Of a stretch of DNA of 64,000 bases, positions 10,015-63,900 are shown piece after piece (positions within the stretch are counted from its first letter, which is position 1; the number at the start of each line of letters is the position of its first letter). The notes under the pieces were generated by a model. The model had not been told where the DNA came from and made no database searches. It saw nothing but the letters and a program-made list of their open reading frames with translations. The stretch is from contig OX467092.1 in assembly GCA_950106755.1 (NCBI GenBank), forward strand, positions 310,001-374,000, in the 5' to 3' direction. Made by a program: the position numbers and the translations under genes. The stretch is from Climacium dendroides. Lineage: Eukaryota; Streptophyta; Bryopsida; Hypnales; Climaciaceae.

Positions 10015-10212
10015 TTTAGATCAGACCGACCTAAACTGCACAAGTTGAAACGAATGAAGTGGATCACACAACATACTGGAACAAAGCAGTTCAAACATAT
10101 CACACACAAAACTGATATTGCTTAAACGTTCTGAATGGATTCATTCAATCCACCAGTCTACTAGTATCAATTAAAAAATAAGTATATACAATTTAAGGCG
10201 GACCGAGCTAAA
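10015..10212. repeat. Two A-type 21-bp palindromes between locus A genes 1 and 2
   Basis: The sites are 10,015-10,035 (arms TTTAGATCAG and CCGACCTAAA around A) and 10,192-10,212 (arms TTTAAGGCGG and CCGAGCTAAA around A). Locus B has two palindromes at the matching place (59,353 and 59,448) with a different consensus. They sit between the stop of gene 2 and the start of the gene 1 exon. Confidence 0.85.
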
Positions 10213-10266
10213 ATGCGCCAGTCTTGCAGTCGAACTACACTTCCCTAGGAAACCATAGACCATGAC

Positions 10267-11282
10267 CTAACTCAAACTAGACGAAGCGCGAACTACTTCC
10301 ATTAGCACTTCGTATTCCTTGCGGTTCCTTTCGTCGCAAAGCATTCGTCGCCCAATTCTTCCAGGACCATTTTCCTTGAATGCCTTCAAACCTTGGTCTC
10401 GAGCTATGTGTAAACGTTGAAACCAAGGAAGCAAAACATCGAAAAGAAAGGAGTCCCGCGGACCATTCCCTCTATAATTCCACGAATCAGGCAGTATGAC
10501 ATTATAAGGCCTATTCATTATATGCTTCATAGGACTGTCATCTACAATGACAGTATTGTCAGACGAGAAGCTTCCTCTTCTATCTTTAAATAACCGGTCT
10601 AGATTTTTGAGGAATAAGTCCTTGTCCGTTCCTGGTACTTAAGATATTGAGAAATCAGTTCAGTGGTAGACTTCTTCATAGAACTCCACACTAAAACTAT
10701 TGCAAATTTTTGAAGCTCTGTAATGAAATTAGAGCAATGAGGCCGCATCCACATAGCCTTGGGTCCGACTAGCGCGGGCTCAGTTGCAGAGTGCGGCTGC
10801 GAGAAGTCTCTCAATTTTTTGTGCGACAATCCCTTGGACTTCCAATCTTCGCAGACACATAGAATGCCATTTAGATCCAGGACAACATTGATCCACTTGT
10901 CCGCCACCCTGGACCTGAATGGACGATCGACGCCCTCCGAAGTCCCTCCACAACGACATGGAGGATCGGATTCCTGCTGTCAAAAGGAATAGAGCGAGGA
11001 CAGTTAACATTCTGCACGTCCTCTTGTCGACACTACAATGATACGAATTCCAGAACCCGTGGACAATAGGGAAATGAACATACCTGCTGCTGAGAGGACT
11101 CAGCAAGAACATCAGGTTCAGTCTCGGGTTGAATGTCAGTCGTAACCACCTTCTTTGATTCACTTTGAAGAGGTTCTAGCATCGGCATTTCATCAAGGGC
11201 AACAAACTCATTTTCCAACACAGGAATTGATGGTGCTATAGAAGAAGCGCGAGTTGTACAAACATTGAAAGCATTCTGAAGC
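10267..11282 (-). pseudogene. Locus A gene 2: broken FCP1/NIF-type HAD phosphatase-like gene
   Basis: Exon 1 (about 11,282-11,084) follows CTATTGCAG and ends at a GTATGT donor. Exon 2 is 10,973-10,267. The frame reads DKWINVVLDLNGILCVCE, with the HAD nucleophile motif as DLNG rather than DxDx(T/V), and later NTVIVDDSPMKHI (motif III) and LLPWFQRL. Compared with locus B, about 30 codons are missing near 10,620-10,635 and the reading frame shifts there, so the N- and C-terminal halves lie in different frames. In B the missing segment might include a short intron, but A's frames still do not join. The C-terminal half stays open to a TAG at the same aligned position as in B. FCP1/NIF proteins dephosphorylate proteins such as the RNA polymerase II tail, but DLNG members may be inactive. 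Confidence 0.75.
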
Positions 11283-11468
11283 CCTGCAATAGAAGAATTA
11301 AGATAGAATGTTGTGTAAGACAACGATATATTACAGCCTCAACAAATGAGTGTTAAAATACAAAATTGATTACAAAATTTGGAACTCCATAGTTCAGTCC
11401 ACTAGAAGTTTCCGTGTCCATAAAAAAACTCTATACACTATATCTACAAATGCAGCTCTAGAATACAC

Positions 11469-11489
11469 ATCAACTCGAGCCGAGCTACA
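11469..11489. repeat. B-type palindrome inside locus A
   Basis: CAACTCGAG followed by CCGAGCTACAA fits the locus-B palindrome consensus rather than the A type. Its counterpart at the same place in locus B is 60,936-60,956. It lies between the end of gene 3 and the start of gene 2. It suggests that the two palindrome types share ancestry. Confidence 0.6.
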
Positions 11490-12619
11490 ACAAATGACAT
11501 CGAGTGATTACTTGGCACAACCTGTTGGTGGATCATTGGCGCGGTCGGTGGTACTCCCGGGCACTACCCCTTCTGGATCCACAGACAATTTCTGCCCACT
11601 ATCACACTGCTGATCTCCCTTGGATATCCCCTCGCTTGCAGCTTGTGCGCCCTCCAAGGTCAATGTGATGTTCTTGGGCGATGAGGAACTCTGACCTCCA
11701 CCTGTTTCTCTCATAGGAATAGGCGGAGGGATAAAATCTGGAGGCCCCGGTGGAAGAGGTGGAGTCGCAGTAGCATCCCTCTGCGGAACGGAGACAGCAC
11801 TATCATTGGATCTTGATGGGTTGTTTCCAATGAAGAGCTGCTGCGAAGCTGTTGGTGGTGGAAGCGTGGCAACAGGCTGGGCTTGATTTCTATCCAAGTA
11901 CGATTGCCACATTACCCAATTATGCTCACGCTCCTCCCTATTCAACCTTTGTTCCTCTAGGAAGGCCTGCGCTAGACCCGCAAAGTTTTTAGTTGATTCC
12001 TTTTGGAACTCTAAATTTTCCTCCCAGTCTTTCTTTTGTTCGCGCCTGATTTCCTCTTGCTGCTTCAAGACCACCGCCAGCGACATCGACAAGGCCTGCA
12101 TATGGTCCACCTTCTTTTTCTTAGCAGGCCTAGTTCTGGAAACCGGAGTTTCAGCATCAAGAGGTTGGACTGCCGTGTTCTGCAACCCTGTTGAGCTTGA
12201 CGACCCTAAATTGGTCTACGATGCACGAGCACCTGGCGTGGTGATTTCGTCAAACACGTCGTAATCCACCGCAATGTCTTCTACGTCGAAGTCATCCTCT
12301 TCCTCCTCATTTTCATCTTCCTCGACGTCTTCCTCCATGCGCCTCTTCCCCCGTTTTTGGCCAGGCGAGGCAGTAGTCTCCGAGCGCCCCCTTGGTCTGG
12401 TCGAATCAGGGTTGGACTGTGACTCACGTTGAGTGGATACAATGTCTTCGTCAACAACGTATGAGGAGTTGAGGAAGTCATCCTTGTCCAACGATAAACC
12501 GACCGTGGCAATATTTTGCCAGATGTTTGTTTCACAATCCGGGACAACAGCGAAAACATCTACCCAACTCATCTGCAGCCAAACACAGCATGCAGAATCT
12601 CAGAGTTACTGACTTGCAA

Positions 12620-12837
12620 TTTAGGACGGTCCAACCTAAACAGCATCCAAGGAACATAGACTAGGATAGTAAAATAACGTCGACTATTATGACAATTAAT
12701 CATTGAGTTCCAGACTATGTATGCATTTTAGGGCGGTCCTCTCTAAATTGCAACCAGGATCTAGAAATTGTTCATTGACTACAAGTAAGCAGTAAGCGTC
12801 AAGTGCAGGTTTACAGTTTAGGTCAGTCCGACTTAAA
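12620..12837. repeat. Three A-type palindromes in intron 2 of locus A gene 3
   Basis: The sites are 12,620-12,640 (arms TTTAGGACGG and CCAACCTAAA), 12,727-12,747 (TTTAGGGCGG and CCTCTCTAAA) and 12,817-12,837 (TTTAGGTCAG and CCGACTTAAA), each around T. The intron runs 12,855-12,573. The third site starts 18 bp downstream of the donor. The equivalent intron in locus B carries two B-type sites. Confidence 0.9.
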
Positions 12838-14312
12838 TTGTAGCGATGTACTTACCAGGGCAGTATATGTCAATTTGCTCCCAGCAAAAACAGAGAATAC
12901 GCTTGACCCCGGATGGCAGAACTTCTTGATGATCCCAAGGTAGAATTCCATTCGCAGCTCCATAATATACATTCTAAACGGTAGCTCATTGTACCTCTTA
13001 GATTCTTTATAAGTAATTGTATTCGGAGCTCGAAATTCCGGTTCAATCCGGACCTGCGTTGGCAGGTCTGGGCTTTGGAAAAAAATGAGCGGTACTTTCC
13101 TCAGCGCCCTTGCCGAATTCGTTGGGAGATCATAAAGTCTCTCATTTTTCGCTAGGTAGTAATCGGAGAAACTCCGATTATATGTGCGTAAGACCTCATT
13201 TTTCTCAACGAACCCGAGGACTTGAGATAAGTCGGTCTCGTCCTCGATGATGAACAACCAGGTCTTGACTTCTTCAAGCAGAGGTTCCTTCATTTGCTGC
13301 TGAGACATTAGTACTTCTAGGAAGAACGGCTTCTCCATTGTGGAGTTCTCCTTCTCCAGCACTCCGGGAATCGATCGAAAATCGATCACTCCCAAACCGA
13401 TCAAGTTCATTGTCTCCGGTGTCCAAACATCCGCCAGCCAGTTCTCGTGTGTGTTGTAACGTATGCTGTAAGGACGCAAATGTGCGACCGACGAAGGAAT
13501 GCGAAATTGGTTCTTCTTTTCCAGGAAGACTTTGAAGAAGGCCTCTATCTTGGGATCGATGGTTGCTGTTGTCTTATTTCTCCCTTGGGTTTGCTTGGTC
13601 ATCGAAAAATATGCCTCATCCGGCCTTTCGAGCAACAGATTCATCATTGCACTAGTGAAGCAGCGGCTTCTCTTGAACTGTCGCCAGTTCTCCGAAATGA
13701 GCTCATTCCTTGCATTGAACAAGTTCAGTTCTGGACAGATCAGGTGAATCTCTTTTTTCACCATCTTCTCCCGCTTCACTCTCTCCACTCATTCCTTGGC
13801 ACTGTAGCAGTCTTGTACGACCGTGGACACTGGTTTGATTGTCACTTTCGGATATGGGTGGTGGCGACTTGGGCCGGAGCGATTGAGAATGTGCTTCGCC
13901 AATCTCTTCATATCGTCGTAGCTGAGATTTCCAAGGGGCCTGAAGAAGTCTCTGCTCATTGCGCAACTTTCTTATTTCCAGTTTTCCTTCTCATTGAACT
14001 TCATCTTCGTCTCTGGATCGATGAGATCCCCGTGTGCAGCACTGATGATAACTTCGCTCCAAACCTCGTAAACGTCGTCGGGCGCAAAAATTATTTTCAG
14101 TTCGTTTGTAAGCTTCAGCTTCTCGTCTGCACCCTTCTTCTTTGAGATCGTAAAGCTTTTATTCACGTCAATCATGGCGAATCTGAGATTAACTGCCTTT
14201 TCAAAACTCTGCACAAGGATTGACCAAATTCATTAACTTATAATCTTATCATAAACTACACTTCAGAAGGAACTCTCTCAGAGAGCAAGTACAAAACTAT
14301 AAGCATATGCAG

Positions 14313-14333
14313 TTTAGGGCGGTCCGCCCTAAA
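14313..14333. repeat. Perfect A-type palindrome in intron 1 of locus A gene 3
   Basis: The arm TTTAGGGCGG, a central T and the exact reverse complement CCGCCCTAAA. The intron runs 14,341-14,209, and the palindrome begins eight bases after the GTAAGC donor. The equivalent intron in locus B has two B-type sites, one seven bases from its donor. Confidence 0.95.
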
Positions 14334-15820
14334 ATGCTTACCTTGTACTTTTGCGTTAGCGCAGTATGGGCTTTGCCTCGTTCTGAGGGTCCACCAGTTT
14401 TGTCTCCTTTCGGAGGTGCCGGTCTTCCCATGGAAACCCACACAGTCCTTGCTCCCAAGATATTTGTTGCCCAAGATGGCGTAGCAGGCTAAAAGTGGTT
14501 GGTCCGATTATAGTATGCGGAGATTGTCCTCAACATCTCCTTATCGAGTGACCAAACCACGTAGCATTTCCAGATTCTGAAGTGTTTCTTCACTTCTTCG
14601 TTCACCATGCTTTCCTCTTGCATCATCAGGTGGCTTGCAGCTACGCTGTGCTGGCCATTGATGATGTAGAATTCTCCGTCCATCACCTCCTCCCATCGAG
14701 GTGGATCTCTTTTGCCTTTTGGCAAGACCGATGTGACGCAAAGAGTTTGCTTCATGCTCTTGTCCGGCATGTTGACAAGATAATGGAGCATCTCTTTAAC
14801 AATTTTGTCCTCCTTCACGCGTATGTTGAGTTCGGCAGGTGCCTCCTTCAATTTTCCAATCGGCAGCTCTTTCTTCTCACCAACTCCGTAGATAAACGCG
14901 GTGGAGTACTTCTCCCAGAAGTTCTTGTATAGAACGCTTATATCTTTGTAGTTTGGCTTCCGCTCCGTCTTAAGGGCTTCTGGAACGACATTCATTTCTT
15001 CGAGATAGCTTGCCGACTCCACGCCTGACTGCTCCGATGTCCTCTCGATTGCCTTCCTTGCTGACCCGGATGCCAGCGGACTGCTTTGAGGTGCTGTTGC
15101 TGGAGATGGTGGGGGCTTCCTGTTTTTCTTGCCTTTACTTTGTGACCCACCAGCCTTCTTCCCCGTTGATGGCTGACCTTCATCTTGAGCAGCTGTCTCA
15201 ACGGATACCGTCCATGGAGCCATGAAGGATCTTTGCATTGCTATCTTCTCCTTGATGACTACAAAGGAGTTCATCAAGAGCGTGATCTTCGTGCATAGTC
15301 TGCTTCCCGTCAGTGGAGTTCCGTCCATGTTGTAGTACTCGCCACTATCTATTTTGCGTTCCAACTCTTTGATCTCCGATCTGTATGGCGTCGGCTCTAG
15401 ACTTTCCAAGAATGGCGATATGTTGAACCAAATCTTCTCTGAGTTCAAGAGTAATGTGAAGTGGTACTGATTGCCCGGTGGGAATTCGTTGGTGGTGGTG
15501 ACGTAGTGAATTTTGATAATAGGGAATTTATCCGTAGACATCTGCTTCACTTTCTCGTCAAATGAGATCGGCAGATACGTCTTTGAATTTCGGTACTTCA
15601 TGTTGAAGTGCATGTTGTCTGTATAGGCCACCATCTTTAGACACCACGCGTCCACCTCTTTTGGATTTTCGAACTCCCACCAGTCACCTTCTATCATATC
15701 CTCGTCTACATTTGGACTTTCTTCTTCGACATCCTCTACTCTTTTGAAGTGCGCCTTGAGTTGATCCATGTATTCCTCCATTCTGCGCATGGACAACTAG
15801 AATTCAGTCTATTGTTGCGG

Positions 15821-16603
15821 TTTAGGACAGACCGAGCTAAATTGTTGCTAGACGTAGATGCACATTTTTCTTGTTGATCTTTCTTAAGTCAATTTTGATT
15901 GCGCCCTTATTTATTTTTGATTTTGTAGTCTTCTGTTTGCTGCCTACGTTTCTGTATTAGTCTGCAGATTAGGGCGGTCCGCCCTAAACTACTGGGATTA
16001 TTCTTTGGTTTGTAAGCTTTTTTGTTTAATTAGTATAAGAGGCATTGAGTTTTAGAAGTATTTTATCTACCAATCATCACTGAAATTCTTCAATGTGTCT
16101 GATTTCTTTAATCATTTTATGGTAATGTCTATGCTTCTATCGTCAGTGTAGTGCTTTGGAGTGCAGTTTAGGGCGGTCCGTCCTAAATTGCGCGTGGTCT
16201 ATATTCTCGGTTTTTATATGTAGCACATATATAGGGTTGATCAATTCTGAATTTCAACGAAAAGGCGGTTTAGGGCGGTCCGTCCTAACTTGCACATTGA
16301 CTATATTTTTTATTTTTCAGCGTAGCATATGCATAGGGTTCATCAATTCTCGTGATTTACAGAAATGCAGTTTAGGACGGTCCGCCCTAAATTGTGCATG
16401 GACTACATTTTTTATTCCTTACCGAGTTAGCGTACCTTATATGTAGAGTTTATGAGTTCTTATTATGAACAAAAATTCAGCTAAGGATGGTCCGCACTAA
16501 ATTGCGCATGGACGACATTTTTGATTTATCAGCGTAGCATATATATAGGATTGATCAATTCTCATGATCTACAGAAATGCAGTTTAGGACGGTCCACCCT
16601 AAA
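15821..16603. repeat. Array of seven A-type palindromes upstream of locus A gene 3
   Basis: 21-bp sites start at 15,821, 15,968, 16,167, 16,269, 16,371, 16,481 and 16,583. From 16,167 the spacing is 102-110 bp. The spacers are themselves related (ACTACATTTTT..., CAGCGTAGCATAT..., ATAGGGTT(C/G)ATCAATTCT), so this is a degenerate tandem repeat of about 104 bp in which the palindrome is the best-kept part. Most sites are flanked by GCA and TGC, extending the dyad. Position suggests promoter or 5' intron DNA of the leftward ParB-methyltransferase-like gene. Confidence 0.95.
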
Positions 16604-16639
16604 TTGCAGACGTTCTATTTCTGACTTTGCCCTCAATAC

Positions 16640-16700
16640 CCGCTTGATATCCGGGGATATCTAGGTGATACCCGCCTAAGACCCGGAGATATCATGGTCA
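16640..16700. repeat. Short GATATC-rich dyad cluster
   Basis: GATATCCGGGGATATC and two further GATATC-like half sites occur within 60 bp, just outside the palindrome array. It is a small local dyad of unknown role. Confidence 0.5.
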
Positions 16701-16761
16701 TATCCATCAAATTCTATGCGAGGGTTAACACATTCTTCAGCTGTAAAGCTTGATAATTAGA

Positions 16762-16823
16762 ACCCTAAACCCTAAACCTCTAATACTAAACCCTAAACCC
16801 TAAATCCTTAAACCCTTAAACCT
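16762..16823. repeat. Degenerate interstitial telomere-like tract (CCCTAAA)
   Basis: About eight units of CCCTAAA and close variants (CCTAAACCT, CCCTAAAT, CCCTTAAA) on the plus strand. This is the Arabidopsis-type plant telomere unit. It is embedded in repeat DNA and not at a chromosome end. A second tract lies at 21,971. Confidence 0.85.
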
Positions 16824-17424
16824 GAACCATTTATTAACATCCAATGCAGAAGTCCTGACCTGCCAAATAACACAATGATAGGTTTTTGATACCTGTCTCC
16901 TTCCACAAATGAAAAAATCCTCAAAGCTGCTACCACAAACGTATCCAAATCACATTGTTGCAAATCCAAGAGTGCAAAACAAGGAGTGAGAAAACAAGAA
17001 AAGTAGAATTGCAACTACTTAGTCACATGTAATTTGGGAGACACACAATTGATTCGTCCCCAAGTTCAACAGAATTGCAACATCCAAATGCAATTGAAAC
17101 CAGTGCTCCCAATTGTTTTCCACCATTCTATAAATAAAAATGAAACCCACAAGCATCCCACAACCCACAACCCACAACCCACAAGCATATGACCTAAAAT
17201 TGCACCACAGAATCCTTGAAATTCAATCACACGGAAACAAAACCCTAATACAGCATAGCATCTAATATGAATCTCATCAAGCAAGGAACTGGCAACTTGT
17301 GAAATTAGCACTGTCTGGCAATTTCTAGCAACTTGAATTTAGGTAAAAAAAGCGTGAAGAAAGATTGGCAAAGTACCCGTTGAAACGAGGAATTCTGATT
17401 TTGTGCCTCCCACTTCGCAACTGA

Positions 17425-18345
17425 AGTATGTCGCAGACAGCAGGTGCAGCTCAAGTGCAGCTCGCACCAGCTTGCACCAAGTACCAAGCACCTTATAGCA
17501 AGCAGCAAGCAACTCAGACAACAAAGCACCTCGCAGCAAGCAGCAAGCACCTCGCACCTCAGACAGCAGAGCACCTTGCAGCAAGCACCTCGCACCTCTC
17601 ACCTCAAACAGCAAAGCACCTCACAGCAAGCACCAAGCAACTCAGACGGTAGTAGGTGCAACTCAGCACCTCGCACCTCGCATAGCAAGTTTAGCAAGCA
17701 GCAAGCAACTCAAACAACAAAGCACCTCGCAGCAAGCACCTCGCACCTCGCACCTCAGACAGCAGAGCACCTTGCAGCAAGCACCTCGCACCTCTCACCT
17801 CAGACAGCAAAGCACCTCGCAGCAAGCACCAAGCAACTCAGACGGTAGTAGGTGCAACTCAGCACCTCGCACCTCGCATAGCAAGTTTAGCAAGCAGCAA
17901 GTAACTCAGACAACAAAGCACCTCGCAGCAAGCACCTCGCACCTCGCACCTCAAACAACAGAGCACCTTGCAGCAAGCACCTCGCACCTCTCACCTCAGA
18001 CAGCAAAGCACCTCGCACCTCTCACCTCAAACAACACCTCGCACCTCGCATAGCAAGTGCAACTCAAAGAACAGGTGCATCCTAAACCTCGCACCTCGCA
18101 CCTTGCACCGCAACAGCAGATGCAACTCAGACAGTAGGTGCAGCCCTAAACCTCACACCGAGCACCAAGCACCGAGCACAGCAACAGCAAGTGCAACCCT
18201 TAACCTTGCACAAAGGATCCAGCACCAAGCACCAAGTACGAAGCAATCAAGCACCTCGCAGCAAGCAAGCAAGCAAGCAGTACGAGCACCAAGCAGCAAG
18301 CACCAAGCACCAAACAACAAGCACCAAGCAATCCGCACCTACCAC
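17425..18345. repeat. GC-richer minisatellite of GCAAGCACCTCGCACC words
   Basis: About 900 bp is built from short words AGCAAGCACC, TCGCACCTC, CAGACAGCA and ACTCAGACAACAAAGC arranged in irregular higher-order blocks. One block of about 200 bp repeats at roughly 17,510, 17,700 and 17,890. Long open frames on both strands arise from the absence of stops in this composition and are not credible genes. Confidence 0.9.
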
Positions 18346-19311
18346 CTTGCAATTTCAAATTTCGAGCATTCCTCACAACTCTCTCGCCGCGCTCCTTCGC
18401 TGCAACCTAGGCGGCCAACAAACCTCTCCACAATGAACTTCACACGAAACCTCAACGAAGAAACTAAACCCTAAACCAAACCAACAAAACTAACAAAGCT
18501 AGCAACAAATGCGCTGACCCTCCCCCCACTCGGCAAAAGGAGGGTGACGACCGACCGGGGCTACATTGAGCCTCCAACTAGGGTCGGTATTAGGTTCGGA
18601 CTTAAGGTCGGGTAAACGTTCAACTACCGAGGCTACAAGGTCGGGAACCAAATCCACAGGGTCGGCAACTGAGGCCGCAGGGTTGGACGTTGGTGCTACG
18701 GGCTTCTTTTCCATTTTTGAAGAAGTGCCATATTGGCAATATAAAAAATGATATTGGTTTTCCAAATTGCAACATTTATCCATTTAAGGGAGCCAACCCA
18801 TTTTGACCACTTAAGCCGTTTGGACTATTTGCATGGCTGAATTTTTCAAAACTTTCATTTCTACAAGTTTCAAAAGAGGCATTACAATGTAGGCATAATT
18901 TTTTAGATGTTTTTTTGCAACATAAAATTATTGAGAACTTTAGTGGAAAATGGGCTTTCTTCTATTCTGATGATATAGCCCATTATCTTTCCAACAATTT
19001 TGATTGCAATATTGAAACTCTCCTAAGCCAATTATATAGTGCGACAACTGCATAGAAAGTTGTGCCATATGTAATTGCTTCAAATTTTTTGTGCACAGTC
19101 AAAAAGGCAATGGTCTATACTACCAGAATGGGATGTCGGTTATAAATGGGTTGCCTCTTGTATTGGATGTATGGTATGGTTTTCATCCACAATTGGGCAA
19201 TTTCATCTAATATATTTTTATATTTCAAAGTTGTCTAGCAATTTCATCCACTTTTTCTAGCATTTTTTATAATCTTTTTTAGGGCAATCCTTCCTTTTCA
19301 TAAATCATAAC
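18346..19311. other. No gene seen; repeat-derived transition to AT-rich DNA
   Basis: At 18,500-18,760 there is a GC-richer stretch, then TTCCATTTTTGAAGAAGTGC and GGCAATATAAAA, closely resembling 49,880-49,930. The following AT-rich stretch (TTTCATCCAC, GCAATTTCATC) also resembles 49,960-50,080. The two places are likely copies of one unclassified repeat. I see no coding signal. Confidence 0.5.
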
Positions 19312-19748: not shown

Positions 19749-19805
19749 CTATTCAAATCATGGCCTTATGGAATGAATTCATAAAATGGTAAATAAAATA
19801 TATAT

Positions 19806-23939: not shown

Positions 23940-24026
23940 CTGCATTTATATAAATTAAAAAATTACATTAAATAAAATTTGACAGGTCTTTCTTCATCTA
24001 TTAATTTTCTATTCGGATTGTGGTTT

Positions 24027-52368: not shown

Positions 52369-52370
52369 TT

Positions 52371-52382
52371 TGGTATCAGAGC
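52371..52382 (+). promoter_or_regulatory. Primer-binding site of Gypsy copy 2
   Basis: TGGTATCAGAGC, two bases after the LTR. It matches initiator tRNA-Met, as in copy 1. Confidence 0.9.
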
Positions 52383-52416
52383 AGGGCTACGTTGGTGTGT
52401 AGTGAGTCTTGGAGCC

Positions 52417-55400
52417 ATGGTGAGAGCCAAAACAGGTGAAGTTGGAGCTTCAAGACAAGGGCGCCAAACACGTGGTCAAGGTTTGGAGGCTAAGGAGCCT
52501 TCCTTAGAGGAAACTCAAGGAGGGGATTCTCTTCATTTAGAACAAATGGGACAAGAATTGACTCCCATTGAGGAAGAGAATGTGGAAACTAGTGCCAAGG
52601 AAGGTGACACCGCCACTAGTCCCGAGAAACCCCAACGTGATCGCAAACGGAAAGGGCGTGACCTCATGTTTGAGGAACTTGTCAAAACACTTCAGGTGAT
52701 GCAAGGTGAAATCAAAGAGCTTAAGGAGAAGGGTTCTACCTCTTCTTCTCACAAATTGTGCAAAACCAACATGCCATCTTCTTTCACAAGCATTGGCAAG
52801 GCCCACAAAGTGAAGGACTTTCTGGTGGAATTGGAGTTGTACTTTGAAGCTCAAAGAGCACCTGAAGAAGACAAGATCACCATCGCGGTGACCTTTCTCA
52901 AGGATCATGCTTTGCTTTGGTGGACTCACTTTTGTGGGGAAAGTCCTGAGGTGGTGGACAACTTGACTTGGGCTGGTTTCAAGGAACGCATTAGCGACTG
53001 CTTGACCCCAGAATACCAAGACATTCGTGATGGAGTGGCACTTGTAAGACTCAAGCAAACAGGGAGTCTTAGGGGGTATGTGCGGGAGTTTAATGCACAC
53101 TGAAATGTACTTCCAAGGCTAGATGAGCTAGCCAAGAAGATCATTTTCTTCAATGGGTTGTAAAGTTGGGCAGAACGTGCATTGTTTAGAATGCCCCAAC
53201 TTCCTGAAACTTGTGCGAAGTTATTGAAGCTGGCTGAAAGGATTGGTGATGATGAAGGCCAAAACAAGAAGGCTAAAGATGGATCTTCAACAGGTGAGTC
53301 AAGCAAACACTCCAAGCGCAAGTTGAGGCGTCATGTTTGGATGAAGAGCAAGCATGGTGGAGATGGAGCCAAGTCAAGTGGGCCAAAAGAAGGGCAAGCT
53401 AAGGGCATTGACAAAGAGGGTGACAAAACCAAAAGGGATGTGAGCCAAATGACTTGTTACAATTGTGGAGAGAAGGGCCACTTGTCCCGGGGTTGCACCA
53501 AACCTAAGGTGAGTATTCAAAATGCACGCTCTCACATTGGAGAGCATGTTCTTCAAGGTGGCTTCTTGGCTAAGGCAAATCAACCCAAGTTGAGTCCCCG
53601 CTTGTTGTTCTTAAAAGGATCCATAAGTAAGCATGATGTTTCACTCCTGGTGGATACAGGTGCAACTCACTCATTCGTGAGCCCAAGACTTGCTAAAGGA
53701 TTGGGCTTGCAAATCAAGGAGTCTTGCAAGCCCATCAAAGTGCAGTTTGCCAAGGGTAAGCCACACAAGACAAGTAAGGTGGCAACGAATGTGGAAGTGA
53801 AGTGTGGGGAGTTCACCTTTGTGGAGGACTTCACGGTGTGTGATATGGATGGGGTAGACCTCATCTTAGGAAATACTTTCCTAGATACTTATGAAGTAGA
53901 TATAAGAAGGCGGCCATCTTTGAAGGTGGTTGCCAATGTAGATGGCAAAGAGATAGAGTTAGAAATAACTAAGTCACCCAAGATGTTGGGGACTCAAATC
54001 CATCTAGTAGTTTTGGAAGAACTTAGTGATACTAAGTTCTTGATTGTTATGCGTGCTGGTGTGGTTGGAGAGGAAAAGAAGTTGGCTAATAGGGCCAATT
54101 CCCCTCCAAAGTGTGTAACAAATGTAATCCATAAGTTTATGGATGTTTTGACAACTGAGTTGCCTGATGCTTTACCTCCTAAAAGAGAAGTGGATCACAA
54201 GATTGAGGTGGTGCCTAGATCACAACCACCATCCAAGGCACCTTACCGGTTGAATCAAAGGGAGTTGAAAGAGTTGAAACACCAACTCAATGAGCTCTTA
54301 GCTAAAGGATACATTTGCAAAAGCAAATCACCTTATGGAGCGCCAATCTTATTTGTGGACAAGAAGGATGGAAAACTTCGCATGTGTGTGGATTATAGGG
54401 CACTCAATAAGATCACTATTAAGAACAACTACCCTTTACCTCGAATTGATGATCTCTTTGATAGGTTGGCAGGGGCGGTGTACTTTAGCCGCATTGATTT
54501 GAAGTCAGGTTACTACCAAATTCGAATTGCACTTGGAGACATTGAAAAGACAGCATGTAGGACCCGATATGGGTCCTATGAGTTTTTGGTGATGCCTTTT
54601 GGTCTATGCAATGCCCCTTCAACATTCACCACCCTTATGAACACCGTGTTCCATCAAGAGATGGATGAATTTGTCATTGTCTACATTGATGACATCTTGG
54701 TGTACTCCAAGACGGCGGAGGAGCATGCCAAGCACCTTGAGATTGTGTTGGGAAGGCTTAGGGAACACAAGTTGTATGCAAATGGGGAGAAAAGTGAGTT
54801 TGATTTGATGGAGATTGACTTCTTGGGCCACATGTTGTCTGGATCGGGGATCAAGCCGGATACAAAGAAGGTAGAAGCAATCAAGGAGTGGAAACCACCT
54901 ACCACCCCAAAAGGTGTAAGGTCATTTCTTGGACTTGCTAATTATTATAGGAGGTTCATTAGAGACTTCTCTAAGATTGCCAAACCTTTGTCTGACTTGT
55001 TGAAAAAGAATCAAGCCATTGTGTGGTCCAAGTCATGTGAGCAAGCTTTTGAAGAGCTCAAGGCCAAACTTTCTTCTCATCCAGTGTTGAAGTTTCCTGA
55101 GTTTGATCAACCTTTTGAGGTACATACGGATGCAAGTGATTTTGCAATTGGGGGAGTGTTGATGCAAGGTGGGAGGTCCATTGCTTTTGAAAGTAGGAAG
55201 TTAGATGGGACCCAAACCAAGTGGCCAACACATGAAAAGGAGATGTTTGCAGTGGTGCATTGTTTGAAGACATGGCAACATTACCTTGGTCTTCATCAAA
55301 CCAAGGTGTTCACCGATAATGTGTCGTTGAAGTATTTTGAGAGCCAAGCTAGAGTGACAGCCAAGCAGTTGAGGTGGTATGACACCTTGGCTCTTATGAA

Positions 55401-56980
55401 TGTGGACTTGATTCACAAACCGGGCAAAGAAAATGTGGTGCTCGATGCCCTTAGCTGAAAGGATGAGTTCAAACCAAGTTCTACTCAAATACTAAGGTTA
55501 ATGTATGAAGGAGAAAGTGACTTAGCTAGGAGAATAAGGGAGGCTTACATGAAGGATCCAGAAGCTCAAAAGTTCCTAAGTGATTTGAGGGTTGGCAAGA
55601 AAGTGAAAGGGATTTGATTACACCAAGGCCTAATCAAATTCAAACAAGGTAGGGTGTATGTCCCCAAAGGCAAGTTGAGGTTGTAAGTCTTGAAGGAGGA
55701 GCATGACAAACCTCTTGCAGGTCATAGAGGTGAGAAAGCCACCATAAGTTTTGTGGCTAAGAGGTTCTATTGGCCTGGGATGAAAGAAGACATTGCACAT
55801 TATGTAAAGACTTGTGTCACTTGTCAAGCCAACCGAGCTTCATATCAAAAACAAGTTGGATTACTTAGGCCTTTGCCCATTCCAAATGGTCCATGGGAAT
55901 GTATTTCCATGGACTTCATCACTAGTTTACCGGAGTCACAAGGGTTTGATGCCATCTTTGTGGTGGTAGATCGGTTTAGCAAGTTGGCTAGGATGGCGCC
56001 AACAACAGGAGTGGCAACTGCATTTCAAACAGCTACACTTTTTTTCAACACTTGGTGGAGGCATAGTGGATTGCCTAGGGTGATTGTCTCTGATAGAGAT
56101 CCTAAATTCACAAGTGCATTTTGGAGGCACTTGTTTAGGAAAATGAAGACCAAGCTTTCATTTAGCACAGCGTTTCATCCTCAAACAGATGGGCAAACAG
56201 AGAGGGTGAATGGGGTCTTGAATCAATACCTTAGAAACTATGTGAGTGCTGACCAAAGTGATTGGACAGAGTATTTGGCTTTGGCTGAGTTTAGTTACAA
56301 CAAAGCCAAATATGCAGCTACAGGAGAATCGCCATTCAAAGTGGCTTATGGTGTGGAGTCACTTATGCCTACTGACCTTGCCTTGGAGGGGTTGCAATCA
56401 GAGTTTGAAAGAAGCCAAGTTGTAGAAGACTTTGTTGTTCAAAGGGAAGCTATGCTTGAGAAGATCAAGTTGCATTTAGACAAGGCACAAAAGAGATACA
56501 TCAAACAAGTGAACCAAGGGAGACGACAGGTGGAGTATGCTGTGGGACAAAAGGTGTGGTTGAATGTGAAGAACTTCACATTGCCAGAAGGACTAATACC
56601 TAAGTTCATGGCCAAGTATGTAGGTCCCTTTGTCATCGCCGAGCGGTTTGTTTGAGGATGTTTATAAGTTAGAATTGCCACAGGAAATCAAGGTACACCC
56701 AACTTTTCATGTTTCATTGTTGAAGCCATATCATGAAGATACCTTGAGGCCAGAACGCAAGCAAGTGTTGTGGCCTCTCCCTGAGTTAGTTGGGGAACAC
56801 CTTGAGTATGAGGTGGAAGGGATTCTTAAGAGTAGAAATACTAAGAAGAAGGGCAAAGAATACTTAGTGAAATGGCGGGAGTATCATGAAAAGGAAGCAA
56901 CTTGGGTAAATGCCAAAGATATGACTCATGTAAAGGAGGTGGTGGATCGATTTGAACAAAGTAGACAATCCAAAACATAA
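52417..56980 (+). pseudogene. Gypsy copy 2 gag-pol, same lesions as copy 1
   Basis: The frame from ATG 52417 is interrupted at TGA 53101-53103, TAA 53161-53163, TGA 55456-55458, TGA 55615-55617 and TAA 55684-55686. It ends at TGA 56653-56655, and the chromodomain (56,630-56,980) follows in another frame. Domain order is as in copy 1: gag, zinc knuckle, protease, reverse transcriptase, RNase H, integrase, chromodomain. Amino-acid differences from copy 1 are few and are most frequent in the chromodomain (for example WREYHEKEATW against WRGYHEKEATW). The last few codons, ending QSRQSKT, are fused to the incoming locus-B terminal sequence. Confidence 0.93.
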
Positions 56981-56999
56981 TATTCATTAAAATGAGAGT
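56974..56999. repeat. Candidate left terminal repeat of locus-B element
   Basis: AACATAATATTC followed by ATTAAAATGAGAGT, nearly the same as 8,721-8,746. Its first base is the first base that departs from Gypsy copy 1. Confidence 0.6.
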
Positions 57000-57289
57000 T
57001 TTCCAGTGAAATGGGAGTTGGGGAAGACACTTTCAACCATGAATTTAATATACTTGTAGATCAATGACTACCAGGAAAGCATTGCAATGACACAGAAAGT
57101 GCATACGGAAGGTACAAATTCCAAAATCAAACTAAGGTCAAAATTGTGACTTCTTCATAATTTATAGGAAGTCATCAAATATACATGTATTGGATGTATG
57201 CATTATAAACATAGAGCAATCCATTTACTAAACTACTACTTCCATTGTGGACTACATTTGTATAAGATACATATGATGTAAAATGTAAG

Positions 57290-57920
57290 GTTCAGGAAGC
57301 ACTACGACTGAGCACTAGGACTTTTGTGAAATTGACAATTGCGTCCACAAAATGAAGGCTTCGTGACCAGAAGGCTATGAGCCTGCCTTTATCAAAAGCA
57401 GAGACAAACGTAGGGATTAGCAAAGCCTGAATATTGGAGAATCGAATACCAACTATTCCCCCACCAATATTCTCAGACATTGCACCGGAGAAAGTGCAAT
57501 GCAAAAGATTATTTGGTGAGGGAACAGTTGGTATTCAAGTCTACAACTTCCGAGGTAAGACAATGTACTGTCCATAATGACTATGAGGTCCAGGATTGTC
57601 AGTGCCCTGGAAATTGTAGAATCGAATACCAATTGTTCCTCTAGTTGAGCCAATTCGTGGTAGAAGAAAGCAAACATTATAAAACCTTAACTCGCAGCTA
57701 CTCTTAGAATGTACTCTCACACACCACAATGTTCAAAAAGCAGTGTATGAGTGTACATTCAAAGAATAGCTGCGAGTAAAGGTTATATAATGTTTCCTTT
57801 CTCTTCTACCACGAATTGGCTCAACTATGCACACTCAGTCGGGGCCATGTGCAATGCAAATGATTATTTGCTGAGGGAACAATTGATATTCAACTCTACA
57901 ACTTCCGAATTACGAAAACC
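57290..57920. repeat. Inverted and direct repeats in the locus-B 3' flank
   Basis: About 100 bp at 57,620-57,720 (TTGAGCCAATTCGTGGTAGA..., TCGCAGCTA) is repeated inverted at 57,745-57,830 (TAGCTGCGAGTAAAGGTTAT, TCTACCACGAATTGGCTCAA), which could form a hairpin. Separately, GTGCAATGCAAA(A/T)GATTATTTG plus GAGGGAACA and TCTACAACTTCCGA occur near 57,495-57,553 and again near 57,850-57,917. Short frames here are not convincing genes. Confidence 0.75.
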
Positions 57921-58173
57921 CCTACATTATTCTCTGTTATTGATAAAATCGGGCTTAAGGCCTTACTAAGGTTTAGGGTTTATTATTTTTCTACTCTCTA
58001 CACAAACTTAGGGATTGTCGAGCCTACATGTACATAATTAGGACCTCTTCTACATACAATTGTACATGAGCTACAAGATGCAGTCCTCAATTTCTCCCGA
58101 GCCTTTAGAATTTTTTTCCTCCGACTGTATCTGTCCAAGGTTGCCTCCATTGCGCTTACAACGACCTTGTCTT

Positions 58174-58449
58174 CTAGATGCCCCAACTAGGAATTGAAAC
58201 ATCAGTACAAAACGATCCACTGTCTTTCTGTTTCTTCAAACTCCCTTGTTCCAACGGAACCAATGGACGTGGAATGGACTGCCCAGGAGCAATAACTGCA
58301 ACCGATTCTCGAAGCGGACTATTTGGAAACTTGAATTTCTCTTCCACTACGGACGTTGGATAATTCACGTCTCCATAAAGCTCACGCCCATCACCCAATA
58401 GTTTAGGGTCATTTCGGACCATCACCCATGTATTGTTACAGAACATCAT
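58174..58449 (-). CDS. Hypothetical exon or small gene in locus B
   Basis: A 91-codon frame from ATG 58449 (MMFCNNTWVMVRNDPKLLGD, then YPTSVVEEKFKFPNSPLRES and PGQSIPRPLVPLEQGSLKKQ) to a TAG. The text looks protein-like, but no domain or paralog was found in locus A. Just downstream, near 58,080-58,150, another frame reads DRYSRRKKILKAREKLRTAS. That resembles the C terminus of gene 1 (GYSRGPEILKA), so parts of gene 1 seem to be duplicated or spliced here. It may be a 3' exon of the gene at 58,601-59,233. Confidence 0.35.
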   Translation of the reverse strand: MMFCNNTWVMVRNDPKLLGDGRELYGDVNYPTSVVEEKFKFPNSPLRESVAVIAPGQSIPRPLVPLEQGSLKKQKDSGSFCTDVSIPSWGI

Positions 58450-58600
58450 TATCGAGCAGTCCTAAATGTATAGTGTATGAACCCCTAGTATTGACGAAAG
58501 ACTATCACTTATAAATTCCCAACATGTACTTCTTTGTAGACTGCCACTCTATACTATGAACACATAATAAGAACAAGTATTATATGTGTGATTTACATCG

Positions 58601-59233
58601 CTATAACGCCCTTGCCTTGAGAATCTCAGGCCCCCGACTGTATCCTGTATTTGGCTTTTTGTACTCATTCCACCGTTGATGCCTCTGTCGTTGTAAGAAC
58701 ATGCGGTCTGATGCGTCGAGATGACAAGCATCGCTTCGAATTCTCTGCACCCCATCATGTGTCTTAGACATCCGGATGCTCCCTGACAGGACATACTTGG
58801 GACAGCGCCTTGCACTATCACAAGCAGCTCCGATAGGAGTATCACGAGATCCACCAGTATCATGAGATCCACAAAAGATCCCTGACTTGTTCCCTGGTGC
58901 AGGAATTTGTGTTGTGGCCTCGTCATAAAGCTTCTTTTTTGGCGCCATGTCTGATGCCACCGGCGATAACTGAGAAGCAAGTGGCCCCCCGCAGCGCAAA
59001 GGAAAAGGTGAGCAAGACTTCGGCAGACGTGGGCCATTATTAGACGGACTATCCACCACACCGTCGTCCACGGGCTTAGTAGAGTAGTCCATTGTGGAGT
59101 TTGCTGTTGCCGCTGAGCACAGAAAGTTCCCCCTGCTCAAGATTGCATATTGTCCATAGTCCAATATAGAATCTGCCGACGCAACACACGGAAGGTGATC
59201 ATCTCCATCAGTTGAATTCCATACGTCCAGACT
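58601..59233 (-). CDS. Locus B gene 1, unknown function (paralog of 9,131-9,850)
   Basis: The exon follows GCTTATAG near 59,234 and reads SLDVWNSTDGDDHLPCVASA, then DSILDYGQYAILS, LCSAATANSTMDYSTKPVDD, a Pro/Ser-rich part, MAPKKKLYDEATTQIPAPG, and a C terminus with RSDACHLDASDRMF and NTGYSRGPEILKA, ending in TAG or at a splice donor just before it. An earlier exon is likely because there is no ATG at the exon start. It is conserved with locus A mainly in the first 60 residues and the last 15. No known domain. Like its paralog it is the most promoter-distal gene of the minus-strand trio. Confidence 0.6.
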   Translation of the reverse strand, partial: SLDVWNSTDGDDHLPCVASADSILDYGQYAILSRGNFLCSAATANSTMDYSTKPVDDGVVDSPSNNGPRLPKSCSPFPLRCGGPLASQLSPVASDMAPKKKLYDEATTQIPAPGNKSGIFCGSHDTGGSRDTPIGAACDSARRCPKYVLSGSIRMSKTHDGVQRIRSDACHLDASDRMFLQRQRHQRWNEYKKPNTGYSRGPEILKARAL

Positions 59234-59352
59234 CTATAAGCAAATCATATTTATATCATGACCACGAAATAGAACTGCATAGCTTTGAGAACATGAAACA
59301 CCATCCACAAACAAACCTAGAACGTGAATCAATCACACCATCCAAGCAACTA

Positions 59353-59468
59353 GGAAGCTCCAATCGAGCTGATTTGAGACACGAGCACTAAACCATGACT
59401 ATTTTATTAGAGGCATAAGGAATGAAATTACAAATCTCCAGGTTCAAGTCAGTTCGACTCGAGCTAAA
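59353..59468. repeat. Two B-type palindromes between locus B genes 1 and 2
   Basis: The sites are 59,353-59,373 (AGCTCCA, A, TCGAGCT) and 59,448-59,468 (GTTCGA, C, TCGAGCTAAA). The right arm of the second, TCGAGCTAAA, differs by one base from that of the A-type site at 15,821 (CCGAGCTAAA), linking the two families. Positions match 10,015 and 10,192 in locus A. Confidence 0.8.
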
Positions 59469-59517
59469 TTAGACCAGAGCATGGAAATCGAGAACTTGTG
59501 CCTCCCTTAGTGTAGTC

Positions 59518-60741
59518 CTAACGAATGCAGGAAGATGCCTGCACGACCTCCATCAACTTATCGTACTCCCTCTTCTGTTTTCTATCGTCACAGAGCATGC
59601 GGCGTCCAATTCGATTGGCCGCATTCTCTCGGAAGGACTTAAGTCCCTCTTCACGAGCCACGTGAAGATTTTGGAACCAAGGGAGCAGGACATCCAGGAG
59701 GAAAGTGTCCTTCACACCGTTACCTCTGTATGACCATGACTCTGGTAAAATGGCATTCTCAGCATTGTTAAGAATGTGCTTCATGGGACTGTCATCCACT
59801 ATCACGGTATTTTGGGACGAGAACCTCCTCCGGTAGCCAGTGAACAAGGTCTCCAAGTTTTTAAGGAAGAGTTCCTTATTTGTGCCTGGCTCCCTGAATG
59901 TTGTAATTCTCGAGTTTTTTTCCCTACATTTTAGAGTCGTACAAGAGGTCTGTCCTAGTTTGACTACCGGTAGGTCGAGCCCCTTAAAGAGATAGGCGGC
60001 CACTTCATCAGTGGTGGAAGTCTTCATACTGCTCCACACTGAAATTGTAGCTATCTCTCCTAACGCACGTAAGAAATCAGAACACCCGGGACGGACATAC
60101 ACTAGCTTTGGCCCCACAACTGCTGGCTCAGTAGCAGAGTGCGGTTGGAATGCGTCCCCAGTCTGTTTGGCCCAGCCCTTATACTTGTGATCTTCACAGG
60201 CGCACAATACCCCATTGAGGTCCAGGACGACATTGATCCACTTGTCTACAGCCCTGGACTCCAATGGAAGATTGACCACCTCCTTATGTCTTGGAAGATC
60301 ACGTGGAGGATCAGATTCCTGATAAACAATGGACGAATGTGGAGCTAGTTATTATCCTGCATTCATAGCCTTTGGACATCGCACTAATTGAAACGGTCGT
60401 TCAGATTTGTAGACGTCAATAAACAAACACAGAATTCAGAATGGTAAATTGAAGACATACCTTCTGTTGCGAGGTCTCGGCTGTCTCCGCAGTAACATCC
60501 CTTGTTGTAGCGGACGGCTCGGGTATCATGACCTCGAGAAGATTGGCATCAGGTATGACACTATCTTCAAGTAGGAGAGCGGCACTATTTAAGGATTCAG
60601 GCTTGTCCTCTTTGAAGGTGACATTCTGATCCGTCGGCTCGTAGACAACATCAGGCACATGCTTCGATGAGGTCGGTTCGGAAACGAGTACACCTGATGC
60701 AACAGTAGGTGGCAACAAATCTACAACATTGACAGCGCTTG
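59518..60741 (-). CDS. Locus B gene 2: FCP1/NIF-type HAD phosphatase-like protein
   Basis: Exon 1 (from about 60,741 to 60,461) encodes a Ser/Thr/Glu-rich leader (for example SAVNVVDLLPPTVASG and DVTAETAETSQQK) and ends at GTATGT. Exon 2 is 60,318-59,518. The HAD core reads DKWINVVLDLNGVLCACE (motif I as DLNG, first Asp kept, second replaced by Asn), ATISVWSSMKTSTTDEV (motif II region), then NTVIVDDSPMKHILNN (motif III, two Asp kept) and FLLDVLLPWFQNL. Length and layout fit the NLI-interacting-factor/FCP1 family. DLNG variants occur in plant members, and activity is uncertain. A segment near 59,900-59,970 is absent from the locus A copy and could contain a short intron. The gene ends with TAG, as in A. 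An upstream exon is possible. Confidence 0.75.
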
Positions 60742-60935
60742 CAAGTCAAGAATGTACAAAGGAAGTGTTGTAAGGAATCCGAGTATTACCGCTTTACATA
60801 AAAATGTTTTGATGTACATACACAATGTCTGAAAATTTTGAACTCCATGGTTCGGTCCACTAGAAGTTCAGCTATGTCAAAATTGTTGAGTTGTCTATGA
60901 GATAACTCTAAAACTACATACAGCCCACGTCAAAA

Positions 60936-60956
60936 ACCAGATTGAGTTGAGCTAAA
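60936..60956. repeat. B-type palindrome between locus B genes 2 and 3
   Basis: AGATTGA, G, TTGAGCTAAAA: a weak copy of the B-type site. It sits 23 bp beyond the stop of gene 3, matching 11,469-11,489 in locus A. Confidence 0.5.
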
Positions 60957-60978
60957 ACTGTACAAGAACACCGAGTGA

Positions 60979-63900
60979 TCATTGAGGTACATCTGAGCCG
61001 GACTCTTGGCTAGGAGACGCGGTTGGCTGGCCGGGGGTCTCCACCACATCACCACCGCCTGCCTCTGGAGGAGCAAGTGCACACTGCGCCTCCACAGGTA
61101 CCGGTGGCGCAACCGCGGATGACGGTGGAGGAGGTGGTGTCCTAGGTGGTGGATGCGAGGGTGGTGCAGGCACCGCGAACTCTGACGGGCCTACCTGACT
61201 TGAAGGTTGAGCCGATGACGACGTTAATGGTTGGTTTTCAAGCCTCAGTTGAGGTGCCGCAGGTTGGACCTCGGCCATGGGCCTCCCACCCTTCATCCAC
61301 AAAATCAAGGCGTCTAACTTGTTGTTAGCTTCCTTGGAATCTTGCAGCATGAATGTCTGCATGCTATCTAGCCTCTTATTCATCTGCTGCTGCTGTAGGA
61401 TGTTCTCCGCCCGATCTTGGAGCCGCTTCTCCTCGATCTCAGCAAACCTCCTCTCCAGGATGTCATCCACGAGTGAAGTCTTCCTTCTCTTCTGCGGATG
61501 GGTGGACGACGGAGTTGACGACGGTTGCGTCTCAATCGCGTCTCTAGTTGACGCAGAGGAGCCACGATGCTTTGTTGGTGTTGCACGAACAGGCCATGAT
61601 GGAGGATCAGGCATTTCATCTTGCTGGCAATTCTCTGCGTCGTCATCGGAGCTTGAGATCACTTCAGGCTCCTCGACAGGTCTCTTGCTCCGACGACCAA
61701 TGGATGGAGAATCCCACGGGGCCCTCCACATTGTCTTCGCGGGCGAAGGTGTCGAATGAGACTCCCGCTGCCTACTTGACTTAGGCTCCTCCACTCTGTA
61801 GCCCGACTCTAGAAAGTCAGCCCTGTCAAGCAACATGGCCGTGGTGACGATGTCGTTCCAGAAGAGGAAGTCCTCTTTTACTCCAACTGCGAACACATTT
61901 ACGGAACTCATCTGCGGTGACAGAAACGAGTGTCTATCATCAGTAAACTATCATATCAGCTCGAGTGGAGCTGAATCAACGGACAATTAAGCTCGATTCG
62001 AGCTGAAGTGAAATTCATAGTGAGTTTGAAGGAATGTGAGGGAAGAGGGCATACCACCGCAGCGCATGTGAACTTTCCTCCGGCGAAGACCGAGAACACA
62101 CTGTCACCAGCCTTGCAAAAGGTCTTCACCACCCACAAGTAGAATTCCATGCGAAGCTCTACATTGTATATGCGGAATTCCAGTTCATTGTACCCGCGCA
62201 GCGTGTTGAAAATTGGTGTGTCCGGAGCCCAAAATGCATTTGGGATTTTGACGTCCGTGCAGTACTCGGGTTTGATTAAGAACATGAGCAGGACCTTGGC
62301 ATGGGACTTTGCCTTTGCCGACGACATGTCACCCAGACGCTCGTAGTCCCCGGGCATGTAGTCCACATACTCGCACCTAAACTTGTTCAACTCCTCGTGG
62401 TTCTGCACAAACGTCGTTACTTGCGTCTGCTCCACTGCATCCACACAGATGAAAAGCCAGACTGGGACCTCCTCCAGTAAGGGCTTGCGCTTCCCCATCA
62501 ACGACAGCATGACGGTGTTGAAGTAGGGAATCGCGATAGTGCCCTTCTGCTTGGACAGCACTCCCGGAATCAAACGGAAGTCAATGACCCCGACTTTCAG
62601 ATCAACCGGGGTGTCCATAGTCCAGACACCGGTTGGCCATGCCGTGTGCTTGTCGTCCTTGATGTTGTATGGCGCATAGTACGCCATTGCTGACGGTGGG
62701 ACGAAATTCTTTCTCTCTCTCAGGAAGACCTTGAAGAACTCAACAGCGTGCTTAGAAATTTCTTCTGTGGACTTATTCTTGGACTTCAACTGCTTAATCT
62801 CCGAGAAGAACTCCTTGCCAAGCCTTTCGAGGAGAACATTCATTGTGGCCGAGGTCACGAAATGTTTGGACTTAAACTCCTTCCATTTCTCCGGCACGAC
62901 CTCATTGTCCGCGTTCAGGAGTCCGAGTGACGGGTCAATTTTATTCAACTCTTTCTTCACAAACTGTTTTCGTTTGCGCCTCTCAATCCAGGCACTCGAT
63001 GAGTAGCAACTTTCCAAAACTGACGATGACTGCTTGATTGTCACTTTCGGATGAGGCTGCTTTCTTTTGTTGCCAGACTTATTCAAAATATGGTTGGCGA
63101 GCTTCTTCAGGTCCTCGTACGTGAGATTCCCGAAGAATTTGAAATACTCCTTATTGAGCATTCCGTTCTCCGTTTTCCATGAAGGCTTGGCGTTGAACTT
63201 CTTGAGCGTGTCTGGGTCAACAAGCTCGCCATGTGCCGCATTGGAGATTACCTCACTCCAGAGGTTGAAGACTTCGTCTGGTGCTGTGATAATTTTTACC
63301 TCGTTGGTTATCACCAGACTATTTTTTGCGTCTTTTTTTTTAGCCTTGGTCTGACCCTTGGCGACGTCGATCATGGAGAACCGCATCTGCATGGCCTTCA
63401 GGAATTCCTGCAACGAATTGTCACATTGTTTGACAGTTAATGAATGAGCTCGACTGGAGCTGAACTGCTAAGGGGTTTCGAGGGAGGGACATATCACAGT
63501 GCAAATTCAGCTCGAGTCGAGGTGAATACTTACCGCGTATTTCATCTTATTGATGTGCACCTCCTTGGACCGCTGGGAGCTTGTAACGGATCCAGAGGAG
63601 GTGTCATCCTTGGGGTTCCACGGTTTCCCCATCTCCTCCCAGACCTTCCGTGCCCCCAAAATGTTTGTGGCCCACGATGGCTGGATTGCTTGAAAGTGGT
63701 TCACGCGGTTGTAATACGCTGAAATGGATCGCAGAATTTCAGCGTCCTCGGTCCACACAATGTAGCAACTCCATGTTCGGTAGTCGTTGACGATCTCGGG
63801 CGCAACATTGTACTTGGGGTCCTGCATTAGTTTGCTTGCCCACACGTTGTGCTGCCTGTTTATAATGTAGAAATCGCCGTCCTTGATTTCTTCCCACGAA

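Follow-up and report, generated by a model that had tools for sequence, protein, structure and literature searches.

This study concerns 21-bp palindromes (dyads) in a stretch of 64,000 nucleotides from the moss Climacium dendroides (contig OX467092.1, positions 310,001 to 374,000), called the window as a whole and forming part of contig C41 of the 412.6 Mb, 123-contig genome that was searched. Two gene clusters in the window, A and B, are DNA transposons present in many copies, each encoding a transposase of its own, and they are paralogous, as a preliminary description of the sequence had held. A third relative, C, is nested in the B transposase gene beyond the window (window coordinates 74778-95429, L030-L032), with the target site duplication (TSD) cttc. 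Each of the three carries a gene for a DUF7869 transposase of predicted DDE fold and a gene for a protein with ParB-like, methyltransferase (MTase)-like and FCP1-type parts, here called the ParB-type protein. The parts of A and B are listed below, with terminal inverted repeats (TIRs) and open reading frames (ORFs); exon boundaries of A and C were drawn by hand and are approximate.

8717-8720: TSD aagc, left of A
8721-27690: family A DNA transposon, complete at 18,970 bp, with edges common to further copies of 95-98% identity, TIRs and a 4-bp TSD
8721-8733, plus strand: left TIR of A, AACACTATATTCA
9131-9850, minus strand: gene 1 ORF of A, function unassigned, 38% identical to its B counterpart
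10240-11284, minus strand: A copy of the FCP1/NIF region, approximate, located by a blastn match to B and by its sequence; looks interrupted
11510-12576, minus strand: exon 3 of the A ParB-type gene, approximate, hand-set; end of the MTase-like domain and a low-complexity and coiled-coil tail
12845-14208, minus strand: exon 2 of the A ParB-type gene, approximate; bulk of the MTase-like domain (fold through homolog P0001)
14342-15796, minus strand: exon 1 of the A ParB-type gene; ParB-like region (fold through P0001) and a fast-changing N-terminal region; a stop codon at 14489-14491 in this copy
23979-26879, plus strand: transposase ORF of A, DUF7869 (PF25273, E 2.4e-41), predicted DDE/RNase H-like fold
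27678-27690, minus strand: right TIR of A, AACGCTATATTCA
27691-27694: TSD aagc, right of A
42949-43030, minus strand: the B insertion site in its empty form, within the opposite arm of an inverted Gypsy pair
56974-64000: left part of the family B transposon, left TIR AACATAATATTCA, TSD ccaa, running on to window coordinate 97302
58601-59237, minus strand: gene 1 of B, approximate
59518-60276, minus strand: FCP1/NIF phosphatase-like ORF of B (PF03031, E 8.7e-17)
60982-61911, minus strand: exon 3 of the B ParB-type gene
62055-63407, minus strand: exon 2 of the B ParB-type gene, MTase-like
63534-64000, continuing to 64976, minus strand: exon 1 of the B ParB-type gene

The inverted ends of A are 13 bp long and its target duplication is 4 bp. 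The same two end points were found in further A copies on contig C1, and the 4-bp duplication was private to each insertion: aagc in the window, and ctac, agta, agag, cgtt and tctc elsewhere (the ends of the agag and tctc insertions were paired although 30-70 kb apart, presumably through nested insertions). The tctc insertion was present twice with the same flanks and marks a duplicated region. On C1, one A insertion with identical flanks at about 7.73-7.78 Mb and about 8.06-8.09 Mb shows a segmental duplication. TIRs, a TSD of fixed length and an RNase H-like transposase, the features of a DDE transposon, were all found in A. A 4-bp duplication is also that of the Sola superfamily. DUF7869 was the only domain in the transposase ORF at E<=0.1; the transposase model (predicted local distance difference test, pLDDT, 76.5) matched Mos1 and integrase. 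In viral contigs, 16 stretches fitted a transposase peptide pattern, none of them being confirmed. B is inserted in a Gypsy element with ccaa on both sides, and its remainder lies beyond the window end.

The ParB-type protein was analyzed through its homologs; those bearing names are from mosses. In the homolog P0001 both a ParB-fold and a methyltransferase-fold domain were predicted, in agreement with the earlier proposal of a ParB-like and methyltransferase-like protein. The predicted MTase part has a beta-class adenine MTase fold, with CcrM among the matches. By sequence, Pfam gave no ParB or MTase domain, either in single ORFs at E<=0.1 or in 30 homolog entries at E<=1, and a search of PDB sequences gave one weak match for exon 2 of B (BsaWI, E 0.26) and none for exon 1 of B. 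An FCP1/NIF domain was found in 16 of the 30 entries (A1) at E<=1. Genes 2 and 3 of the preliminary description are probably one gene, because the FCP1 domain lies within the same annotated protein in 13 of 26 moss homologs. The domain (PF03031) is shared with the FCP1/SCP (NIF) phosphatases, whose signature is DxDx(T/V), whereas the nucleophile motif of the moss protein is DLNG: the signature place reads LDLNGILC in 9 of the 30 entries, the others being without the pattern, and LDLNGLLC in C. A Ceratodon homolog cluster, P0009, has 139 member sequences and so represents a family of very high copy number; its representative, KC19_VG279300, is tagged to the V chromosome.

The predicted folds bring up two possible uses of the dyads. 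In the first, the MTase-like domain would methylate the dyads at their centres and the ParB part would read the mark. CcrM, one of the matches, recognizes GANTC, and this equals the consensus centres of B and C; that of A is GGWCC. These centres resemble methyltransferase recognition sites, which could be chance, and several centres in family E are not GANTC. A DPPY-type catalytic motif occurred in none of the 30 entries (some being fragments without that region), while [VI]ID[FL]RxxP was present in 20. The motif I pattern, also in 20, was without the acidic residue that is normal in beta-class MTases. The MTase-like domain is probably not catalytic, because no DPPY motif was found and the S-adenosylmethionine (SAM) motif I is altered, in which it differs from the beta-class N6-adenine MTases M.BceJIV, CcrM and RsrI. 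Self-marking of this kind is very improbable. In the second use the protein would cluster or segregate element copies, as ParB does at parS, instead of acting on transcription. The predicted ParB-N fold fits such a role, as do the dyads dispersed over the element in the manner of parS clusters. The ParB nucleotide-binding box, however, is expected to read GERR, and NGQHSVAAS or a variant stands there in 20 of the 30 entries; the moss protein differs from ParB, Noc and KorB in its fusion to MTase-like and FCP1 parts and in residing in a eukaryotic transposon. No ParA-like gene was found among the 20 ORFs scanned of 28 listed in the window, and an integrated element has no obvious need for partition. 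A partition-like role is, if anything, a little less probable than self-marking.

The palindromes themselves were found at the following places.

10015-10212: A-type sites at 10015 and 10192, in the spacer or intron from gene 1 to the FCP1 region
11469-11489: B-type site within family A, past exon 3
12620-12837: three A-type sites, at 12620, 12727 and 12817, in intron 2 of A
14313-14333: perfect A-type dyad in intron 1 of A, 8 bp past the splice donor (donor read by hand)
15821-16603: seven A-type sites, starting from 15821 to 16583, 5' of the ParB-type gene; a 102-bp unit repeated in tandem (x4.3) spans 16163-16607
22990-23939: array of nine A-type sites directly 5' of the transposase ORF
59353-59468: B-type sites at 59353 (weak dyad) and 59448, from gene 1 to the FCP1 region of B
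61955-62007: B-type sites at 61955 and 61987, in intron 2 of B
63444-63526: B-type sites at 63444 and 63506, in intron 1 of B, the latter beginning 7 bp past the donor

The A-type sites between genes 1 and 2, in both introns and upstream of the gene had been described before, as had palindromes of a different consensus in the corresponding introns and spacers of B, and this observation was confirmed. As had been pointed out, a single base separates the right arm of 59448 from that of 15821. What had been missed was the nine-site array, the longest of the window, together with the transposon status of the clusters and the probable single-gene nature of genes 2 and 3.

The A consensus gave 33 strand-wise matches in the window at up to 3 mismatches, compared to 0 in 100 dinucleotide shuffles. 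A position weight matrix (PWM) trained on A gave 23 matches with a score of at least 6, and 22 were kept as A sites, all within 8721-27690; the match at 11956 (score 7.7) was dropped, as it lies in exon 3 and under the best of 3 shuffles (13.6). All but one of the 22 score at least 26.7; the exception, 16481 (13.5), is at chance by score yet lies inside the 102-bp tandem array. PWMs for B and C, trained on the same elements that they scanned, gave 21 and 19 sites at a threshold of 14 (best of 20 shuffles 12.8 and 11.5). Odd dyads whose arms match at 9 or more of the 10 positions numbered 16 in the 18,970 bp of A and 5 in the rest of the window up to 56973 (38,003 bp), where no match to any of five family motifs was found at up to 3 mismatches. 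Intron 1, intron 2 and arrays 5' of the ParB-type and the transposase genes are matching places in A, B and C. The spacer beside the FCP1 region carries sites in A and B, and a site past exon 3 is present in A (11469) and C (77953). No site centre falls in an exon as drawn, among 22 in A, 21 in B and 19 in C (chance values 2e-6, 2e-5 and 2e-4, resting on the approximate hand-drawn exons). Site 11469 had been called B-type; this was seen in the window and more clearly in all six other A copies read, two of which are one duplicated insertion. The site is thus fixed in family A, where it may be left over from an older specificity or be recognized by the protein of another family.

Two further explanations turn on these positions. 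Intron RNA hairpins affecting splicing, the alternative offered in the preliminary description, would suit the intron-1 sites close behind the splice donors of A and B. Arrays are also present 5' of two genes, however, and a 1-nt loop cannot close. The degenerate positions 7 and 15 were pairable in 13 of 22 sites, compared to 10.2 by shuffling (P 0.12), so the letters rather than the pairing seem to be conserved. This weakened alternative is the least probable of those considered. The dyads could also be bound by the transposase in excision and insertion, and the longest A array does adjoin the transposase gene. The sites are nevertheless not terminal (about 1.3 kb separates the left end of A from its nearest site, and 3.75 kb the right end), the ends have TIRs of their own, and the transposase is 61-75% identical across families with different motifs. 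Transposase binding is therefore judged improbable.

The dyad motif is specific to each of at least four families and, less clearly, to a fifth. The motifs are TTTAGGNCGG in A, TTYAGCTCGA in B, TTTAACTCGA in C and ATCAGCGCGA in E, and TTCAGGT in the less clear D. A genome-wide search for ParB exon 1 gave 97 A-type matches; the B exon gave 90, namely 70 of at least 81% identity and 20 of 44-45%, the latter split into D and E by frame length and motif, without a tree. In the DNA read, the dyad ATCAGCGCGANTCGCGCTGAT was present 5' of two E genes, and the only E copy read in intron 1 carries a variant of it there. A dyad TTCAGGT...ACCTGAA was present 5' of two D genes, in 217-bp units in L040; its inner arms are imperfect and it is less certain. 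The genome holds 924 A sites (strict), 77 B sites and 410 C sites (both at up to 1 mismatch), and the reversed-pattern control gave 0 for each. Co-location was counted for the first sites of each list, which are not a random sample (the A sites are all on C1). Among the A sites listed, 78 of 100 were within 12 kb of an A-type ParB gene, and none had a B, D or E gene nearby; by gene midpoints, 74 were within 12 kb and 96 within 60 kb. Among the B sites listed, 35 of 50 had a B gene nearby and none an A, D or E gene, one B match (C37:30108351) having been dropped before the count as part of its neighbour. The 50 C sites listed, compared with the A, B, D and E gene places only, included 0 near A, 1 near B and 0 near D or E genes. 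The proposal that site type and protein family go together was borne out by the listed A and B sites and the two further families sampled. Some overlap between motifs appears on relaxed matching. With 2 mismatches allowed, 16 A sites fit the loose D motif, and 2 places in C fit the B motif. Raising the limit to 3 gives the D motif 21 matches in A and 6 in B, and the B motif 11 in C and 1 in E, while within B the C motif has 2 matches and the E motif 5.

The ParB-type protein diverges faster than the transposase between the families compared: exon 1 identity is 38.7% for A-B and 31.1% for A-C, whereas the transposase is 68.7-75.3% identical for A-B and 61.4% for A-C. The B ParB-type protein is 40.7% identical to the Physcomitrium patens (P. 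patens) protein and so about as near to it as to A, for which reason the families may predate the divergence of these mosses, or may have moved between them.

To our knowledge, sequence-specific anti-silencing encoded by a transposon is found in few systems only. Spm TnpA and MuDR MURA have sites near the ends of their elements and also serve transposition, whereas the moss sites are internal. These maize transposon proteins activate or hypomethylate their own family (PMC10398659, available in part). VANDAL of Arabidopsis has family-specific motifs in the introns of VANB21 and VANC21 and 5' of VANA21, multiplied in tandem repeats (PMC5735166, available in part), and VANC and motif change together across related VANDAL families (partial texts of PMC5735166 and PMC10398659). 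The VANC21 motif, YAGTATTAY, is short, non-palindromic and of one orientation (same partial text of PMC5735166). The moss elements resemble VANDAL in their family-specific motifs in introns and 5' of genes of the same element, in their tandem arrays and in motifs that differ among relatives. They differ in the 4-bp TSD, the DUF7869 transposase (that of VANDAL is MuDR-type), the 21-bp palindromes and the ParB-like/MTase-like/FCP1 protein with its moss homologs. By transposase, motif type and architecture, the features compared (VANC protein sequence was not among them), the moss system is not a VANC member.

Because the layout is strikingly like that of VANC and VANDAL and one array is a 102-bp tandem repeat, a binder encoded by the element is favoured. 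We give about an even chance to the palindromes being binding sites for the fast-evolving protein of the same transposon family, which would keep that family active. Co-divergence and the modelled folds point to the ParB-like/MTase-like/FCP1 protein as the most likely binder, probably as a dimer, which odd 21-bp dyads suit. It would coat the noncoding parts of its own family's copies, namely its own promoter, the introns and the transposase promoter. Once bound it would oppose host silencing or otherwise drive transcription, as VANC does on VANDAL. Protein and site would have diverged together between families, each family then activating itself only; the B protein, for example, would bind the B dyad TTYAGCTCGANTCGAGCTRAA. 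The activating or anti-silencing effect, the choice of binding domain and the role of FCP1 are inferred. The interpretation in the preliminary description, dimer binding with co-changing specificity, is partly supported, and binding itself is a prediction. The same protein and sites could instead work in the opposite sense, as a system that represses its own expression or limits copy number, the FCP1 domain being an RNA polymerase II co-repressor. Sites 5' of the gene for this protein and 5' of the transposase gene would suit this, as would the FCP1/NIF domain of the homologs. Simple autorepression needs no intron or spacer sites, however, and the high copy number (97 A-type and 70 B-type matches to ParB exon 1) shows no tight limit. 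We consider autorepression unlikely, though less so than transposase binding.

Several results weigh against activation by the family's own protein. The FCP1 domain fits a repressor equally well, the moss sites are palindromic where VANC21 motifs are short and of one orientation, and the structural model, made for a P. patens homolog, is of low overall confidence (mean pLDDT 53). Arm pairing is poor at some of the PWM sites: 59353, found by PWM, pairs at 6 of 10 arm positions, and it, 65841, 65885, 65928 and 82630 all pair at 5-6. That each motif is restricted genome-wide to its own ParB family held insofar as no listed A or B site was near another family's gene, but 22 of the 100 A and 15 of the 50 B sites listed were not within 12 kb of their own family's. 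Four listed A sites have no A gene within 60 kb; the two of them that were read (L035, L037) lie in A-element remnants of 93% and 90% identity; two other A sites read, closer to A genes, are also in remnants. Three of the 15 B sites without a nearby detected B ParB gene are perfect B-type dyads in 73-74-bp repeats (array at C35:23559885, in L039, C35:23559001-23560500). This array gave no blastn match to A, B or C and perhaps belongs to another family using the B-type site.

On raw mismatch, the counts speak against the expectation that palindromes are better conserved than their surroundings. Counts were taken from six elements (nine sequence sets; three whole, three in two halves) and the window copy; two of the six are one duplicated insertion, and the Fisher tests treat related cells as independent. 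In young A copies the raw mismatch of palindromes (102/2747) equalled that of 60-bp flanks (405/11444). Non-CpG deviations were about half as frequent in palindromes as in flanks (30/2667 vs 267/12780, P 0.0006), but the difference was not significant from other noncoding sequence (787/54629, P 0.21) or from coding sequence (705/54345, P 0.48). CpG loss in the palindromes of aged copies was as fast as in flanks (27/542 vs 27/594), and the sites therefore give no lasting protection in dead copies. All 27 palindrome CpG deviations were C>T or G>A, which points to methylation of resident copies.

On balance we think it possible, at somewhat less than an even chance, that a VANC-like self-recognition was built independently in moss transposons. 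A ParB fold and an altered adenine-MTase fold would form a modular dyad reader, tied to FCP1, that gave rise in one genome to no fewer than four or five specificities excluding one another. No published account of such a system was found among the papers that the literature searches listed, most subscription papers being outside the reach of the search; in the available part of PMC7466625 the terms Sola and palindrome do not occur. If true, this would be a second, unrelated anti-silencing system, whose sites are long and readily scored and in which several specificities coexist, allowing direct tests of the joint diversification of transposons and recognition proteins. It would also provide a natural series of matched proteins and sites for a DNA reader of the ParB/MTase type, and a role for multicopy FCP1-domain or uncharacterized genes of Physcomitrium and Ceratodon.

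Other repeats were noted in the region. CCCTAAA repeats like those of plant telomeres lie within A at 16761-16822 and 21971-22013, and the A half-site starts with TTTAGG. A 196-bp tandem repeat (x2.7), rich in GCACCTC/AGCAAGC, lies inside A at 17496-18017. The Gypsy-type retroelement forms a 99.7% inverted pair at 42989-48886 and 51076-56973, with 1.3-kb repeats at 40812-42108, 47592-48888 and 51076-52370. A truncated A-type copy lies farther on, near 99.8-102.7 kb in window coordinates.

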